Source of the DNA: Rhodospirillaceae bacterium
Lineage (GTDB): Bacteria > Pseudomonadota > Alphaproteobacteria > SHVP01
DNA length: 64,000 nt
NCBI GenBank assembly: GCA_002722055.1
Contig: PBKD01000003.1
Location: 1 to 64,000, forward strand
Direction: 5' to 3'
The notes beneath the pieces are model-generated. The model worked only from the letters and a program-made list of their open reading frames with translations, made no database searches and was not told the DNA's origin. The position numbers and the translations under genes are program-made. Below are positions 40,739 through 48,093 of the stretch, in pieces; within the stretch, counting starts at the first letter, position 1, and each line of letters opens with the position of its first letter.

Positions 40739-41644
40739 TCAATTTATATATTTATTTTTATTTAAATGTGTAAATTTAGAAATACTATTTGACTTAATAT
40801 AATCAATATTTGAAATTGCTTTTAATGTATCTAAATTATTATTCTCAATTACAAATAGATTAATAGCAAATTGTTTGAGTAAAATAATCAAGTTTATTGG
40901 TTGTTGTATTTTAAAATATGTTTCAATTATCTTTTCACAACTTTTCCATTTACTTGCTATAGAAAGTTCAATAATTTCTAAAAATTTAATCTCATCTAGT
41001 GAAAGTCTTTTACAATCTATGCAGTTAATTTTTAAATTCTTTTTTTTATCTAACACAATCTTTTCAATTATGCTATGAAATGAAATTGTAATTGCAGAAT
41101 AATCTATCTCTATATGATATTTATAAAGCATACCAAACATATCTAAATCTTCCTGAAGAGCTTTGTACCAAATTCTTAAAGATCTAATCATTATAAATTG
41201 AAAACTATTTAAGCTAGTTTCAACACATGAACTGTTAATTATTTTAGGTTTCAGTAAACAATTATTAGATTTATTGATTATTTTTTTTATTTTTATTAAT
41301 TCATTAATAAAACTAATGTTATCTCTCTCATTTATATTAAGGGAATTAACAATTTTTTTACTTATTAGAGATTTATCCTTTTCTATACCAAGAGAGTAAA
41401 GAGATAGAATTTTTTCTTCTTCAATATTTATTTTATTTCTTTTTTTATTTGATTTTTCGATTTTTGGTAGAAAAAAAATAAGTTTACTTAATGAGTTATA
41501 TATCCTAAACGCTTCTTTTTTTGGTAATATTTTATTAAGAATTACCCAAATATGCTGATTTCTTTCATAATTAAGCGTTCTTTTTTGCCTTATTAACCAA
41601 ATAATGAATTGCTCTTCAAATTCTAAGTTACTGATATATCTCAT
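40739..41644 (-). CDS. unknown protein, divergent from the iron operon
   Basis: 301 residues, no family recognised. It is mainly helical by eye and very rich in Ile, Lys and Asn. It has no signal peptide and no convincing membrane helix. The N-terminus (LEFEEQFIIWLIRQKRTLNY) is the most complex part and the likeliest conserved region. A single C-x-x-C (INCIDCKRL) could bind metal. Its start is about 34 bases from the nearer of two Fur-type boxes that it shares with the divergent DUF4856 gene, and the peroxiredoxin gene follows. An iron-regulated cytoplasmic role is inferred from position only. Confidence 0.6.
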   Translation of the reverse strand: MRYISNLEFEEQFIIWLIRQKRTLNYERNQHIWVILNKILPKKEAFRIYNSLSKLIFFLPKIEKSNKKRNKINIEEEKILSLYSLGIEKDKSLISKKIVNSLNINERDNISFINELIKIKKIINKSNNCLLKPKIINSSCVETSLNSFQFIMIRSLRIWYKALQEDLDMFGMLYKYHIEIDYSAITISFHSIIEKIVLDKKKNLKINCIDCKRLSLDEIKFLEIIELSIASKWKSCEKIIETYFKIQQPINLIILLKQFAINLFVIENNNLDTLKAISNIDYIKSNSISKFTHLNKNKYIN

Positions 41645-41677: not shown

Positions 41678-41696
41678 GATAATGATTATCGTTGTC
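41678..41696. promoter_or_regulatory. Fur box 1
   Basis: GATAATGATTATCGTTGTC matches the classical 19-base Fur box (GATAATGATAATCATTATC) at 16 of 19 positions. It lies in the divergent promoter region and overlaps a possible -35 (TTGTCA at 41692-41697) for the rightward operon. Confidence 0.8.
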
Positions 41697-41706
41697 ATTA
41701 TCAAGA

Positions 41707-41725
41707 AATAATGATAATCATTCTC
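41707..41725. promoter_or_regulatory. Fur box 2
   Basis: AATAATGATAATCATTCTC matches the classical 19-base Fur box at 17 of 19 positions. Its centre is 29 bases from the centre of box 1. It covers the region expected for the -10 of the DUF4856 gene. Confidence 0.85.
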
Positions 41726-41759: not shown

Positions 41760-43145
41760 ATGAATAAAGTATTTTGTGTTATTACAATAATATCTGGACT
41801 ATTTTTTTCTAATTTTGCTTTTGCAAATGAGGTTTATGGTCCTTACAAGGTTACACTAAAAGGTTATAAAGGTAATAAAACCAATTCAGTGTCTTATAGT
41901 GGTCAGGTTGCTAGGCAAGTACTTCATACTTCACTTAAAAAATTAAGTTCATCTGGATCACTACCAAAAATGTTACCATATTATACAGGTATGGAATACA
42001 TGGGCACAAGTAAGGCTTCATTAGATATAATTGACCCAAAATGGTCAGAAAAATTTCCTATAAAGCCGTCTACTATAAATGAAATTTCTTCTGGAAAAAA
42101 TTTAAATGGTAAGGCATATAAAGGGATAGTTAATGGTTGGCCTGGTCAAATGACTGGTAAAGAAGTTATTGATTTCATGATAAGGAAGGCTGCAAAATCA
42201 AATAAGGGTGTCGATTTAGCCAATGGCTACAATTACACACAGTTAATTTCTAAATTTGTAATGGGTGCTGTTTTCTATAATCAAGCAGTAGATGGTTACC
42301 TAGATGAAAAATTAACTAAACCAAATGATAAACCTTATAAAAAAGGCGCATACTATACTGGTAAAGAACATGTATGGGACGAAGCCTTTGGATATTGGGG
42401 TGCTGCAGCACATACCTTAACATTATCTCCAAAAGAACAATATGAAGTTGCTAAAAAGAAGAACTTGAAAGCTGCTGATTATAATAAAGATGGTGTAGTT
42501 GATTTAAGAAATGAAATGACTTTTGCTCATGCATACTATGCTGCTAGTTTTGATAAAGGTGGTAAAACTAATTACTCTAAAACAATTATGCAAGCTTTTA
42601 TTGATGGAAGAAAATTAATAGAAAGCGCAAATGGAGCCAAGTTTTCTGACTCACAAAACGCGAAACTTAAATCATACGTTGATATTATTACTTCAAACTG
42701 GGAAAAAGTAATAGCAGAATCAGTATTTAAATATGCTGGAAGTGTTTATCTAGATATGGCTAAGCTTGAAAAAGCTATTAAAAATGGTTCTTCAACTGAT
42801 AAAGCGTATTCAGCTTATCTTAAACATTGGGGTGAATTAAAAGGTTTTGCTTTATCACTTCAAACAGGAAAAAAGAATCTTGGAGATACAGCTGTTAGGT
42901 TGAATAGGTTAATAGGTTTTTCTCCATTATTACTGAATTCATCACAAGTTGTGGGTCTTGACTCAAAAGGTAATTATACTAAAGATCAAGGTTCATCTTG
43001 GGAAGAATATATGCTTCATATGCTCAAAGTTCAGAAACTTATGGTTGATGAATTTAAAGTTGCTGCAAGAAACAAAGATCAACTCTCAGGTATAGCAGAC
43101 TTATCTAAAAAATTAGGTGGGTCCAATTCTGCAGAGAACGATTAA
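41760..43145 (+). CDS. secreted DUF4856 (imelysin-like) iron-regulated protein
   Basis: 461 residues. Signal peptide MNKVFCVITIISGLFFSNFAFA (cleavage about 22/23). The DUF4856 hallmark is EHVWDEAFGYWG at about 203-214, and a D-Y-N-K-D-G-V-V-D loop near 240 looks like a calcium-binding EF/dockerin-type loop. The C-terminus has a helix-rich part ending 'SSWEEYMLHMLKVQKLMVDEF'. The family is related to imelysins and to iron-uptake-associated surface or periplasmic proteins; the exact role is unproven. GGGAG (41745-41749) precedes the ATG. Two Fur-type boxes lie just upstream, and an iron ABC importer follows. Confidence 0.78.
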   Translation: MNKVFCVITIISGLFFSNFAFANEVYGPYKVTLKGYKGNKTNSVSYSGQVARQVLHTSLKKLSSSGSLPKMLPYYTGMEYMGTSKASLDIIDPKWSEKFPIKPSTINEISSGKNLNGKAYKGIVNGWPGQMTGKEVIDFMIRKAAKSNKGVDLANGYNYTQLISKFVMGAVFYNQAVDGYLDEKLTKPNDKPYKKGAYYTGKEHVWDEAFGYWGAAAHTLTLSPKEQYEVAKKKNLKAADYNKDGVVDLRNEMTFAHAYYAASFDKGGKTNYSKTIMQAFIDGRKLIESANGAKFSDSQNAKLKSYVDIITSNWEKVIAESVFKYAGSVYLDMAKLEKAIKNGSSTDKAYSAYLKHWGELKGFALSLQTGKKNLGDTAVRLNRLIGFSPLLLNSSQVVGLDSKGNYTKDQGSSWEEYMLHMLKVQKLMVDEFKVAARNKDQLSGIADLSKKLGGSNSAEND

Positions 43146-43152
43146 ATGAATG

Positions 43153-43250
43153 GGCTCAGAAAATAATATTCTCTTCTCCCATCAACGAAGACTATCCTGC
43201 TGTCTAGAATTTAAGTCTTCGCCCCTCAACAGAGAGAAATTTTCTGAGCC
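43153..43250 (+). ncRNA. structured intergenic RNA element (novel, three nested stems)
   Basis: The 117-base gap holds a compact fold. An outer 12-base-pair stem (GGCTCAGAAAAT at 43153-43164 with ATTTTCTGAGCC at 43239-43250) encloses TTCTCT/AGAGAA (43169-43174 with 43233-43238) and an inner 8-pair stem CGAAGACT/AGTCTTCG (43186-43193 with 43214-43221). Two C-rich single-stranded stretches (CTCCCATCAA and CCCCTCAAC) face each other in the internal loop. A T-rich run (TTACTTTTCTTT) follows. It could be an attenuator, an mRNA-processing/stability hairpin, or a 3'-UTR-derived small RNA. No known family is recognised. Confidence 0.65.
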
Positions 43251-43262
43251 TTACTTTTCTTT

Positions 43263-45293
43263 ATGTCAGAACTTTATATATTAATTGATCAATTACAGGA
43301 TGTATTCTTAAATCAATTTACTGATTCAAGAAAGAGAATATTTTTTCTCTATATTTTTTCTGCTTTTGTTATTTCTTTTATTTGGCTAAAATTTTTTAAA
43401 TCATACAAATATAATGAGATTGTTAATAAAATTTTTGATAGAAAAGTTTATTTTTCTTTGTCAGCATTTGAAGATTACTTTCTAGCAATAATTAACCAAC
43501 TTATAATGGTAATTATATCACCATATTTATTGACACAATTAATCTTAGCTACCTTTTTATTCAATTTATTTCATAAACTATCATTTTCACCTCATTTATA
43601 CTCAGGTCTTTTCTCTAATTTAACAATTGCAATATTATTTAGTTCCATTTTTTTTATTTTAGATGATTTCGCAAGATTTTATGTTCATAGATTACTTCAT
43701 AAAATATCATTTTTTTGGGTATTTCATAAAGTCCATCACTCTGCAAGAACATTGAACCCTTTGACAGTTTATCGAACTCATCCTGTTGAAGGTATAATTT
43801 TTTCGATTAGAGGTGCATTAGTACAAGGATTGTTAATATCAATTTTTGTTTTTTTATTTGGGTCACAAGTTGATTTAATTACTATCTATTCAGCAAATAT
43901 TTTTGCTTTTATTTTTAATATTGCTGGATCAAATTTAAGACATACAAATATTGAAATAAAATATTATAGTTTTTTAGAAAAAATATTCATTTCCCCTTAC
44001 CAACATCAAATCCATCATTCAAGTCTTCCAGAACATCATGATAAAAATTATGGTGTAGTGTTCTCTATTTGGGACAATATTTTTGGAACACTTATTTTAT
44101 CTAAAAAAGTAAAAGAAGTAAGATATGGCTTATTTAAAGATTCATTTCCAGAAAAATTATCTTTTTTTTACCTTTACTTTTATCCATTTTATGAAAGTTT
44201 TAAAATTATGAAAAATATAAAATATAAATTAAATACCCCTTTATTTAAATATATAAATTTTGCAAAAATTATTAGAACCTTTACTGTTTCATTTATATTT
44301 TTCTTATTTATATCTCCATTAATTATAAATAAATCATTTTCTAATGAAATAAATATTTATTCTCATAGACAACCTTTTTTAATCAATCCCTTTTTAGACT
44401 TATTTACAAAAGAAACTGGAATTAAAACAAATATTGTTTATGCAAAAAAAGGTCTTGCAGAAAGATTGCAAGCGGAGGGAAGAAATACTCCAGCTGATGT
44501 TATATTGACGGTTGATATTTCTAGATTGCATGTTTATGCAGATAAAAACTTATTAGCTTCTGTATCCTCTCAAATATTAACTAAAAATATTCCTGTACAC
44601 CTTAGGAGCATAGATAATACATGGTTTGGTTTGTCAAAAAGAAATAGAGTAATAGCGGCATCTGTAGATAGAGTAAAAAAAGAAACAGTCAAAACATATG
44701 AGGATTTAATTAATAGTAAATATAAAGGTAAAATATGTTCAAGACCAGGTAGCCATGTTTATAATCGTGCGCTTCTATCTTCAATTATTATCGCTCATGG
44801 TAAAGAAGATGCTGAAGAATGGGCGAAGCAATTAGTAAATAATTTAGCGAGAAGACCTCAAGGAAACGATAGATCGCAACTTAAAGCTATTTATCAAGGA
44901 GAATGTGACTTGGCAATTATAAATCATTATTATTTTGGTAAACTAAAATATTCAGATATTGAGCAGCAAAGAAAATGGATGGAAAGTGTTTATCTTATAT
45001 TTCCAAACCAAGAAAAAGGTGACAGGGGGGTTCATGTAAATATATCCGGCGGTGGTGTTGTTAAATATTCAAAAAATAAAGATCTTGCTATAAAGTTACT
45101 TGAGTTTTTGTCAGAAAGAAAAGCACAAACTCTTTATAGTGAAATAAATTTTGAATTTCCTGTTAATCCAAATGTTAAGCCAGGGGAAAAACTTAGTAGT
45201 TGGAAAAAATTTAGAGAAGATAATGTAAATATTAGCAAGATAGCAGAGTTTTCTAATGAAGCTCAAGTAATCATTGATAAAGTTGGGTGGTAA
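43263..45293 (+). CDS. fusion: fatty-acid-hydroxylase/sterol-desaturase membrane domain + FbpA-type iron(III)-binding protein
   Basis: 676 residues in one uninterrupted frame. Residues about 25-280 form a multi-pass membrane domain with the diiron histidine boxes H142-R-L-L-H146, H155-K-V-H-H159 and H248-Q-I-H-H252, the signature of fatty-acid hydroxylases/sterol desaturases. Residues about 336-360 are a hydrophobic stretch ending in SFSNE, like a signal peptide. Residues 361-676 are a periplasmic iron-binding protein of the FbpA/FutA kind: NIYSHRQPF at the start and a Tyr pair in DLAIINHYYFGK. An in-frame ATG at 44208 (residue 316) could allow separate production of the binding protein. No clear ribosome site precedes 43263. 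FbpB and FbpC genes follow. Confidence 0.85.
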   Translation: MSELYILIDQLQDVFLNQFTDSRKRIFFLYIFSAFVISFIWLKFFKSYKYNEIVNKIFDRKVYFSLSAFEDYFLAIINQLIMVIISPYLLTQLILATFLFNLFHKLSFSPHLYSGLFSNLTIAILFSSIFFILDDFARFYVHRLLHKISFFWVFHKVHHSARTLNPLTVYRTHPVEGIIFSIRGALVQGLLISIFVFLFGSQVDLITIYSANIFAFIFNIAGSNLRHTNIEIKYYSFLEKIFISPYQHQIHHSSLPEHHDKNYGVVFSIWDNIFGTLILSKKVKEVRYGLFKDSFPEKLSFFYLYFYPFYESFKIMKNIKYKLNTPLFKYINFAKIIRTFTVSFIFFLFISPLIINKSFSNEINIYSHRQPFLINPFLDLFTKETGIKTNIVYAKKGLAERLQAEGRNTPADVILTVDISRLHVYADKNLLASVSSQILTKNIPVHLRSIDNTWFGLSKRNRVIAASVDRVKKETVKTYEDLINSKYKGKICSRPGSHVYNRALLSSIIIAHGKEDAEEWAKQLVNNLARRPQGNDRSQLKAIYQGECDLAIINHYYFGKLKYSDIEQQRKWMESVYLIFPNQEKGDRGVHVNISGGGVVKYSKNKDLAIKLLEFLSERKAQTLYSEINFEFPVNPNVKPGEKLSSWKKFREDNVNISKIAEFSNEAQVIIDKVGW

Positions 45294-45373: not shown

Positions 45374-47008
45374 ATGAAATACTCTTTAAAATTATGGGGT
45401 GTATTAGGAATCGTTTTAACACTAATTATTTCAATTCCTATAATTTCAATAATTATTATTGCACTCACACCTAATTTCAATATATGGGGACATCTAATAT
45501 CAACTGTTCTACCAGTTTATACATCAAATACTTTATTGTTAATGCTTGGTAATATTATATGTGTTTGCTTAATTGGTATACCTACTGCATGGTTAGTAAG
45601 CTGTTATTCTTTTTTTGGTAGAAATTTTTTCAGCTGGGCACTTATTTTACCATTAGCCGTACCAGCTTACATAATTGCCTTCGTATATACTGATATTTTA
45701 GAGTACTCTGGCGCCTTTCAAGTTATATTAAGAAATTTATTTAATTGGAATAATGCACAGGATTATTGGTTTCCAAATATTAGATCAATTGGAGGTGCGG
45801 TTTTTGTAATGTCATTTGTATTATATCCATATGTTTATCTTTTATGCAGAAGTTCATTCCAACATAATTCAGCTAGATTTTATGAAGTAAGCAGAACTCT
45901 AGGTTATAATCTTTGGAGTACTTTTTTTAAGCTTTCATTACCATTAACTAGACCTGCTTTAGTTATTGGATGTTCGTTAGTTATGATGGAAACATTAGCA
46001 GACTTTGGAACTGTTGATTTCTTTTCTATAAATACTTTAACTTTAGCTATTTTTAATGTGTGGTTAGGGATGGGTAATGCATCTGGTGCAGCACAAATTT
46101 CTTTAGTAATTCTAATTTTTGTATTTACTTTGTTATATTTTGAAAAAAGCGCAAGAAATAGAAGAGAATATCATATTATAGATAGAAATAATATTTTAAT
46201 TCAAAGAAATATTTTAAAGGGATATAAGTCGTTCATAGCTTTCACAATTTGTTTTATACCCCTTTTAATAGGATTCATTATTCCATCAATAATTCTTTTT
46301 TATTATTCATTATTAACTTTTGATATTTCTTTTGATATTTCATTTTATAAATTAATAATTAATAGTTTTAGCTTATCTCTTATTGCATCACTAATTACAG
46401 TTATAGCTGCAATAGTTATTGCATCTGGTCAAAGATTATATGGTAACAAATTTATTATTTTCACACGTATATCATTATTAGGTTATGCTTTTCCTGGTGC
46501 GGTTTTAGCTCTAGGAATTATTATTCCTTTAGCTTTAATTGATAATTATATTGATAAATTTTTTATTTCATATTTTAACATTTCAACTGGACTAATTTTA
46601 AGTGGTAGTATTTTTGCATTACTTTTTGCTTATTTAATTAGGTTTATTGCTATTGGATATGGCGCAATCGAATCAGGGTATACAAGTATTAATAAAAATA
46701 TTGATATGGCATCGATTTCATTAGGTGCTGGAAAAATATTTACTATTAAAAAAATTCATATTCCTTTACTTAAATCAAGTATTTTAATTGCATCTATAAT
46801 TGTTTTTGTAGATACTATGAAAGAATTACCTGCAACTTTAATTTTAAGGCCTTTTAATTTTGATACATTGGCTACAAATGTTTATCAATTAGCTTCAGAT
46901 GAACTATTAGAACAAAGTTCTCTGTCTGCTCTTACGATTGTTTTAGTAGGGATTGTTCCTTTAATTTTTTTAACAAAAAAAATTAGTGATAACAAATATT
47001 TTTCTTAA
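45374..47008 (+). CDS. fbpB: iron(III) ABC transporter permease (FbpB-like)
   Basis: 544 residues with about twelve membrane segments, formed as two fused BPD-type permease halves as in FbpB/HitB/SfuB. The EAA-type loops, which dock to the ATPase, are recognised at EVSRTLGYNLWSTFFKLSLP (first half) and DMASISLGAGKIFTIKKIHIP (second half). It forms the inner-membrane channel for ferric iron delivered by the binding protein. It follows the fusion gene by 80 bases and precedes the ATPase gene by 11. Confidence 0.92.
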   Translation: MKYSLKLWGVLGIVLTLIISIPIISIIIIALTPNFNIWGHLISTVLPVYTSNTLLLMLGNIICVCLIGIPTAWLVSCYSFFGRNFFSWALILPLAVPAYIIAFVYTDILEYSGAFQVILRNLFNWNNAQDYWFPNIRSIGGAVFVMSFVLYPYVYLLCRSSFQHNSARFYEVSRTLGYNLWSTFFKLSLPLTRPALVIGCSLVMMETLADFGTVDFFSINTLTLAIFNVWLGMGNASGAAQISLVILIFVFTLLYFEKSARNRREYHIIDRNNILIQRNILKGYKSFIAFTICFIPLLIGFIIPSIILFYYSLLTFDISFDISFYKLIINSFSLSLIASLITVIAAIVIASGQRLYGNKFIIFTRISLLGYAFPGAVLALGIIIPLALIDNYIDKFFISYFNISTGLILSGSIFALLFAYLIRFIAIGYGAIESGYTSINKNIDMASISLGAGKIFTIKKIHIPLLKSSILIASIIVFVDTMKELPATLILRPFNFDTLATNVYQLASDELLEQSSLSALTIVLVGIVPLIFLTKKISDNKYFS

Positions 47009-47019
47009 TGGTTTAACAG

Positions 47020-48093
47020 ATGTCTAATAATTCCAACCCAATTTTGAAAATAGATAATATAAGTCATAAATTTGGTAAATTTGAAATTATTAATAATTTA
47101 TCATTGGAAGTTCTTCCAAATGAAATTATTTGTTTATTGGGCCCTTCAGGTTCTGGTAAATCAACTATACTTAGAATAATTGCTGGTCTAGAAAAATTGC
47201 AAAAGGGAAAAATATATCTAAATAATAAAATTATATCAACTAATGATTTCGATTATATTCAACCTGAAGATAGGGAAATTGGTTTTGTTTTTCAAGATCT
47301 GGCTTTATTTCCACATTTAAATGTAGAGGATAATATTAATTATGGTCTAAATAAAATTAATAAAGAAATAAAAAAACAAGTTTATAATTCTTTAGTAAAT
47401 AAAATTGGAATTCAGCATCTTGGAAAAAAATATCCACATGAACTTTCTGGTGGTGAACAACAGAGAGTTGCTCTTGCAAGAGCTCTTGCTCCTAATCCTA
47501 AACTAATGTTACTTGATGAACCATTTTCTGATCTAGATACTAGATTAAGGGAAAAAATTAGAGAGGAAACAATTTCTATTCTGAAATCAAATAATACTCC
47601 AGTTCTATTAGTAACTCATGATCCTAACGAAGCGATGTTAGTATCAGATAAAATTATTATTATTAATAACAAACAAAAGATACAAGAAGGTTCATCAGAG
47701 GATATTTATTTCAAACCTAAAAATAAATTTGTAGCAAGTTTTTTTAGTGATATAAATATTTTCTCTGGTTTAGTGAATGAATCAAAGGTTAATTTCTTGC
47801 TTGGTGGTGTTAATATTAATAAAAATTATAGTCAAAAAGAAGTTGAGGTAGTTATCAGAACAGAAGGGGTTAAAATTAATAATATAAAAGATGAAAGTAT
47901 TTTTAATGTTGAGGGCGAAATATCATCTGTAAAAAATGTAGGTATTTATCAGTATGTAAATATAAAAATTAATGGACATCCTTATTTAATATCAGCTAAA
48001 TTAACTGATAGGCTTAATATTGTAAAAAATTCAAAGGTGTGGGTAGGATTTGACCCTCGTTTTGCCTTTATATTTGAAAAAGAAAAACTATAA
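47020..48093 (+). CDS. fbpC: iron(III) ABC transporter ATP-binding protein (FbpC-like)
   Basis: 357 residues. Walker A GPSGSGKST, signature motif LSGGEQQRVALARALAP, Walker B LMLLDEPFSDLD, switch His in LLVTHDPNEAML, and a C-terminal TOBE-like regulatory domain (about 240-357). It powers the FbpB-type permease. Last gene of the iron operon; tatA follows after 113 bases. Confidence 0.93.
   Translation: MSNNSNPILKIDNISHKFGKFEIINNLSLEVLPNEIICLLGPSGSGKSTILRIIAGLEKLQKGKIYLNNKIISTNDFDYIQPEDREIGFVFQDLALFPHLNVEDNINYGLNKINKEIKKQVYNSLVNKIGIQHLGKKYPHELSGGEQQRVALARALAPNPKLMLLDEPFSDLDTRLREKIREETISILKSNNTPVLLVTHDPNEAMLVSDKIIIINNKQKIQEGSSEDIYFKPKNKFVASFFSDINIFSGLVNESKVNFLLGGVNINKNYSQKEVEVVIRTEGVKINNIKDESIFNVEGEISSVKNVGIYQYVNIKINGHPYLISAKLTDRLNIVKNSKVWVGFDPRFAFIFEKEKL

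Follow-up and report, generated by a model that had tools for sequence, protein, structure and literature searches.

How a membrane hydroxylase and a ferric-iron-binding protein came to share one gene, and whether they act as one protein, is the question raised by positions 43263–45293 (+) of the window, the 64,000-nt stretch of DNA analysed here, which comes from a marine-type bacterium. The ORF reading gives a single uninterrupted 676-codon frame at these positions, with a Pfam match to FA_hydroxylase (PF04116) at residues 129–276 (E = 1.7e-24; 87.1 bits against a cut-off of 31). Solute-binding families of Pfam match residues 372–650, and residues 360–674 resemble solved ferric-binding proteins over the whole mature domain (FbpA 1q35, E = 1.3e-82). 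The union of a hydroxylase domain and an FbpA-type domain in one frame, as read in the preliminary description from the letters alone, therefore holds, and so do the finer points of that reading. The three histidine boxes are present where it had placed them (H142/H146, H155/H158/H159 and H248/H251/H252, of the forms HX3H, HX2HH and HX2HH) and, together with H173 and H227, are invariant in an alignment of 30 relatives, 29 of which also keep H258. The iron-binding tyrosines are found as Y500, Y556 and Y557; they are invariant in 28 relatives and align with Y142, Y198 and Y199 of 1q35 FbpA, which we take to be its Fe ligands. Between the two domains lie the hydrophobic stretch (residues 331–360) and the in-frame ATG at 44208 (M316) that had been pointed out. 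Because the di-iron histidines and Fe-ligand tyrosines are all there and hardly vary among relatives, both halves of the fusion look intact and functional. The features of the locus are collected in Table 1.

Table 1. Features of the DUF4856–hydroxylase–FbpABC locus, in window coordinates.
Feature	Position	Strand	Basis and remarks
Fur-box-like site 1, upstream of operon	41678..41696	.	Motif scan
Fur-box-like site 2, upstream of operon	41707..41725	.	Motif scan
DUF4856 (PF16148) protein, N-terminal signal peptide (by eye)	41760..43145	+	Pfam; obligate genomic partner of the hydroxylase
Stable intercistronic hairpin, DUF4856/fusion gene	43152..43251	+	Folding; nearly identical in sister species
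FA_hydroxylase (PF04116) membrane di-iron domain, residues 1–315	43263..44207	+	Pfam match; all expected His present
Linker and intact FbpA-type signal peptide, residues 316–360	44208..44342	+	In-frame ATG 44208 (M316); putative signal peptidase I site S358-F359-S360/N361
Mature FbpA ferric-iron-binding domain, residues 361–676	44343..45290	+	Tyr ligands Y500, Y556, Y557
FbpB-type permease of ferric ABC importer	45374..47008	+	Pfam and neighbourhood
FbpC-type ATPase of ferric ABC importer	47020..48093	+	Pfam and neighbourhood

The PF04116 superfamily includes Scs7 as well as sterol and carotenoid oxygenases. The hydroxylase of the window shares the three boxes and the membrane segments with this superfamily (NCBIfam OlsE), but belongs to a distinct clade that is bound to iron-uptake genes and DUF4856. 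Its identification as an ornithine lipid hydroxylase (OlsE) was rejected, as it scored 54.4 bits against an NCBIfam equivalog cut-off of 475. A search of the hydroxylase profile against the PDB gave no match, and an AlphaFold model of the fusion built from two sequences reached a pLDDT of 31 and was set aside. A second, distant FA_hydroxylase-like gene is found in the same genome outside the window (G000:C3:109003-109581, minus strand). In another genome (G491, L160:4666-6504), a creatininase domain (PF02633) shares a single frame with an FA_hydroxylase protein of a different kind.

An assembly or sequencing artefact that joined two genes has a negligible probability, and the accompanying prospect of separate genes in all relatives is excluded. 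The second species of the genus (G001; MarineAlpha2_Bin1, record PTLN01000078) carries the same fusion at 84% identity in an independent assembly with divergent sequence. Across the linker, the two species differ at about 50% of synonymous sites (pS 0.49) with a dN/dS of 0.27, and a 24-nt indel lies in frame, so that one frame is kept; the other two frames contain many stops. The linker is thus under purifying selection, which argues against an artefact, as do 16 further fused loci elsewhere in the class, one of them in a single-contig genome.

The fusion was searched for in the window's own family, in the class and in selected families and orders, and its recurrence in related genomes is clear: frame analysis places the hydroxylase directly before FbpA in 18 fused and 10 split loci of the Alphaproteobacteria, and 19 further split loci all come from one order. 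In most split pairs the two genes overlap in different frames, by anything from a few to about 100 nt, and some pairs have short gaps; because of this overlap a single indel can merge or separate the two genes. The FbpA proteins that adjoin a hydroxylase form one clade (100/100), apart from FbpA proteins of the same class without a hydroxylase, and the matching hydroxylase clade is supported at 100/99. In the FbpA tree, well-supported branches force at least five changes between the fused and split states, from which it follows that the covalent linkage is dispensable; starred branches of the hydroxylase tree force four to five. One fused clade comprises 13 loci across several families. The genus of the window falls in with f141, a family with split loci. 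Other genera of its own family have FbpABC without the hydroxylase and a more distant FbpA, and the hydroxylase cluster has either been lost in these genera or been gained by transfer. No fused copy was found in plasmid records, where the best matches were to the FbpA half only.

The split form is common in families f141 and f30 (the order of genome G168), in species with genomes of 1.1–1.6 Mb. The hydroxylase occurs in 42 of the 150 searched genomes of this order (families f141 and f30), which may be abundant marine lineages. One FbpA-like match in a single-contig genome (L026; G038:C1:164969-165985) contains three internal stops; the gene may have decayed, or the match may run too far.

The FbpA domain adjoins the permease and the ATPase of the same importer type. 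As in ferric ABC importers of the FbpABC/FutABC type (periplasmic FbpA; PDB 1q35, 2pt1, 6g7n), an FbpA with its tyrosine set is followed in one operon by a two-half permease and an ATPase. The window differs in that FbpA is preceded in frame by the 315-residue di-iron membrane hydroxylase, and in that a DUF4856 gene heads the operon. Relatives of this DUF4856 protein were found in 9 of 385 genomes of the class, and the hydroxylase clade, whose membership is set by a clear gap in E-values (1e-70 vs. 6e-52), in exactly the same nine. The DUF4856–hydroxylase pair also occurs without fbpA directly behind it (L078, L080, L093), in one genome outside the class (L149/L155), and in family f30 ahead of a second, separate FbpA lineage. 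Outside the class, in other proteobacteria, sister hydroxylases follow DUF4856, imelysin and TonB receptor genes. Because the pair is thus found without fbpA, with a second FbpA lineage and with imelysin–TonB receptor genes, what stays constant is the pairing of DUF4856 with the hydroxylase, and the iron-uptake module joined to it varies. The window cluster shares with the DUF4856/imelysin (Peptidase_M75)/TonB receptor clusters the leading DUF4856 gene and a related hydroxylase; it differs in having FbpABC in place of the imelysin and the TonB receptor.

Two loci outside the class (L156, L157) have the order DUF4856, imelysin, TonB receptor, hydroxylase, and look like a cassette for iron uptake with the same kind of hydroxylase. 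A reading of DUF4856 as a diverged imelysin was rejected (hhalign probability against Peptidase_M75, 0.1%), and no PDB match was obtained. Two motifs of the DUF4856 proteins, DxNxDGxxD (EF-hand-like) and an invariant HxWDE, hint at a metal-binding protein. On the minus strand at 40739–41644 of the window, a 301-codon frame with no Pfam match is divergent from the Fur-box-like sites and adjoins a redoxin gene; it was not found in the clusters of relatives.

The two Fur-box-like sites at 41678–41725, just before the DUF4856 gene, are the only close Fur-box matches in the 64-kb window. They have two to three mismatches, against a chance expectation of 0.08 matches per window, and none of 100 shuffles equalled them. 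Six other loci have similar sites ahead of DUF4856, among them L080, where no fbpA stands beside the pair; the region upstream of DUF4856 in L073, L078, L155, L158 and L159 shows no conspicuous Fur-like box, and scans for RirA-type and Irr-type motifs gave nothing consistent. The motif scans suggest that the locus is probably Fur-controlled. The link of the hydroxylase to iron, proposed in the preliminary description from the adjacent iron importer, is thus strengthened by the gene neighbourhood and by these sites.

Between the DUF4856 gene and the fusion gene, positions 43140–43262 are ~98% identical to the sister species, vs. ~84% for the downstream genes. This region holds a single-copy hairpin of ~100 nt (−35 kcal/mol, z −4.6), for which an Rfam search of the window hairpin gave sub-threshold chance matches only and no family. 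A stable hairpin directly follows the DUF4856 stop in most loci, with no shared sequence (L073, L074, L075, L076, L079, L080, L104, L121, L123, L127). Such a hairpin could keep DUF4856 more strongly expressed than the genes behind it, perhaps through partial termination that fixes the ratio between them.

Whether the frame yields one chain or two products depends on the region between the domains, where a hydrophilic basic linker is followed by a typical signal peptide ending S358-F-S360, before N361. The −3/−1 consensus of signal peptidase I is present in 18 of 18 fused loci, compared with 37% of background positions, by a rough test that applies a simple −3/−1 rule to related sequences and that many split members (f141) fail although they are presumably cleaved; among the rows listed for this test, L100 is a mislabelled split locus and L116 a duplicate. 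All 17 fused loci examined keep an in-frame ATG where the split genes start FbpA, and in 11 of the 17 it is preceded by a strong ribosome-binding site (−5 kcal/mol or better). The site at this ATG is weak in the window (−0.4 kcal/mol), in its sister and in L110; several other start codons in the window also have no ribosome-binding site. In split relatives, FbpA is encoded as a usual free protein, signal peptide included. Most likely, then, FbpA is released into the periplasm by cleavage of the fusion as a precursor, and in some lineages internal initiation adds to the supply; a lasting tether is less likely. Fused and split states replace one another on the tree and the signal peptide is never lost, from which we infer separate mature proteins whether or not the genes are fused.

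Two other accounts of the frame bear on the same evidence. The binding protein had earlier been proposed to be membrane-tethered, and the join on which that proposal was built is genuine and recurrent. The fusion would then stay whole, with residues 331–360 anchoring FbpA in the inner membrane beside the permease and the hydroxylase serving as a membrane platform. The long and strongly hydrophobic h-region (peak 2.06) would suit such an anchor, and the 13-locus clade has kept the fusion across several families, where a tether may be useful. A lasting tether is nevertheless unlikely in view of the consensus cleavage site in every fused locus, the retained internal start, the free FbpA of split relatives and the repeated changes of state. 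ABC importers with tethered or fused binding proteins, such as the OpuA and GlnPQ types, likewise have a covalent link between the binding protein and a membrane protein acting in the same pathway. In the window, the membrane partner is an enzyme and not a permease, and the join keeps a predicted cleavable signal peptide.

The earlier suggestion of two proteins from one frame fits better than a tether, as the internal ATG is kept, although the ribosome-binding site at 44208 is weak. In its strong form, FbpA would come chiefly from initiation at this ATG, and the full-length fusion would be a lost-stop by-product serving mainly as hydroxylase. The conservation of the ATG at the start position of the split genes, its strong ribosome-binding site in most fused loci and the overlap of the split pairs, which suits coupled translation, speak for this account. 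It is nonetheless a somewhat doubtful one, given the weak sites in the window, its sister and L110 and, as no stop exists, the fact that every hydroxylase chain would still be a fusion; in G001, moreover, eight extra codons would lengthen an internally started signal peptide to ~53 residues.

The account of the whole locus that we hold to be slightly more likely than not is that the periplasmic DUF4856 protein, the membrane di-iron hydroxylase, FbpA, FbpB and FbpC together serve in iron starvation, that the fusion is cleaved to free FbpA, and that the hydroxylase and DUF4856 modify a lipid or a lipid-like iron ligand. An ancestral hydroxylase gene and fbpA would have overlapped end to start until a small indel merged their frames; the class has seen several such mergers or reversals. 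The long product would insert in the inner membrane, where the His boxes of the hydroxylase would face the cytoplasm, as is usual for the family. The FbpA signal peptide would then work as an internal export signal, with signal peptidase I cutting after S360, and the free periplasmic FbpA would load FbpB/FbpC with ferric iron. In some lineages, extra FbpA may arise from the kept internal ATG and its ribosome-binding site. The hydroxylase would stay in the membrane and, with DUF4856, hydroxylate some lipid of the membrane, or an iron ligand resembling a lipid, that the cell needs under iron scarcity; this choice of substrate is a guess from family and neighbourhood.

The hydroxylase could instead be a general modifier of membrane lipids (OlsE-like, or of sterol or hopanoid type) under iron stress, with no direct handling of iron and linked to FbpA by co-regulation only. 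OlsE is the only named-family match, the PF04116 superfamily is generally known to act mostly on lipids, and DUF4856–hydroxylase pairs exist without an adjoining fbpA, all of which makes this a serious possibility, if one with less than even chances; the repeated joining to two FbpA lineages and the TonB receptor and imelysin neighbours outside the class suggest more than shared regulation. A more far-reaching version, which appears improbable, makes the hydroxylase a working part of ferric uptake. Its substrate would be an organic, lipid-like ligand of iron, hydroxylated at the inner membrane and carried in the periplasm by DUF4856, so that iron is handed to FbpA; the single chain would fix ratio and place. 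If true, this would add a new, enzyme-coupled route to the known kinds of iron import. For the ferric reductase-like accessory role once suggested, nothing was found in favour beyond gene neighbourhood.

Both domains belong to well-known families, and the locus looks like an undescribed iron-starvation gene set. In the open-licence literature, no description was found of the hydroxylase/FbpA fusion, of the DUF4856–hydroxylase pair or of the operon, nor of DUF4856 or of a sterol desaturase with imelysin and a TonB receptor; the nearest matches proved unrelated. The mosaic of fused and split loci is a natural experiment on the merging of overlapping genes into a single frame, with mature proteins that probably stay separate, and through it the internal cleavage of a signal peptide can be tested directly. 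The findings point to an apparently iron-controlled gene set that ties an iron-consuming membrane enzyme to ferric iron uptake and is present in many alphaproteobacteria, small-genome families among them.
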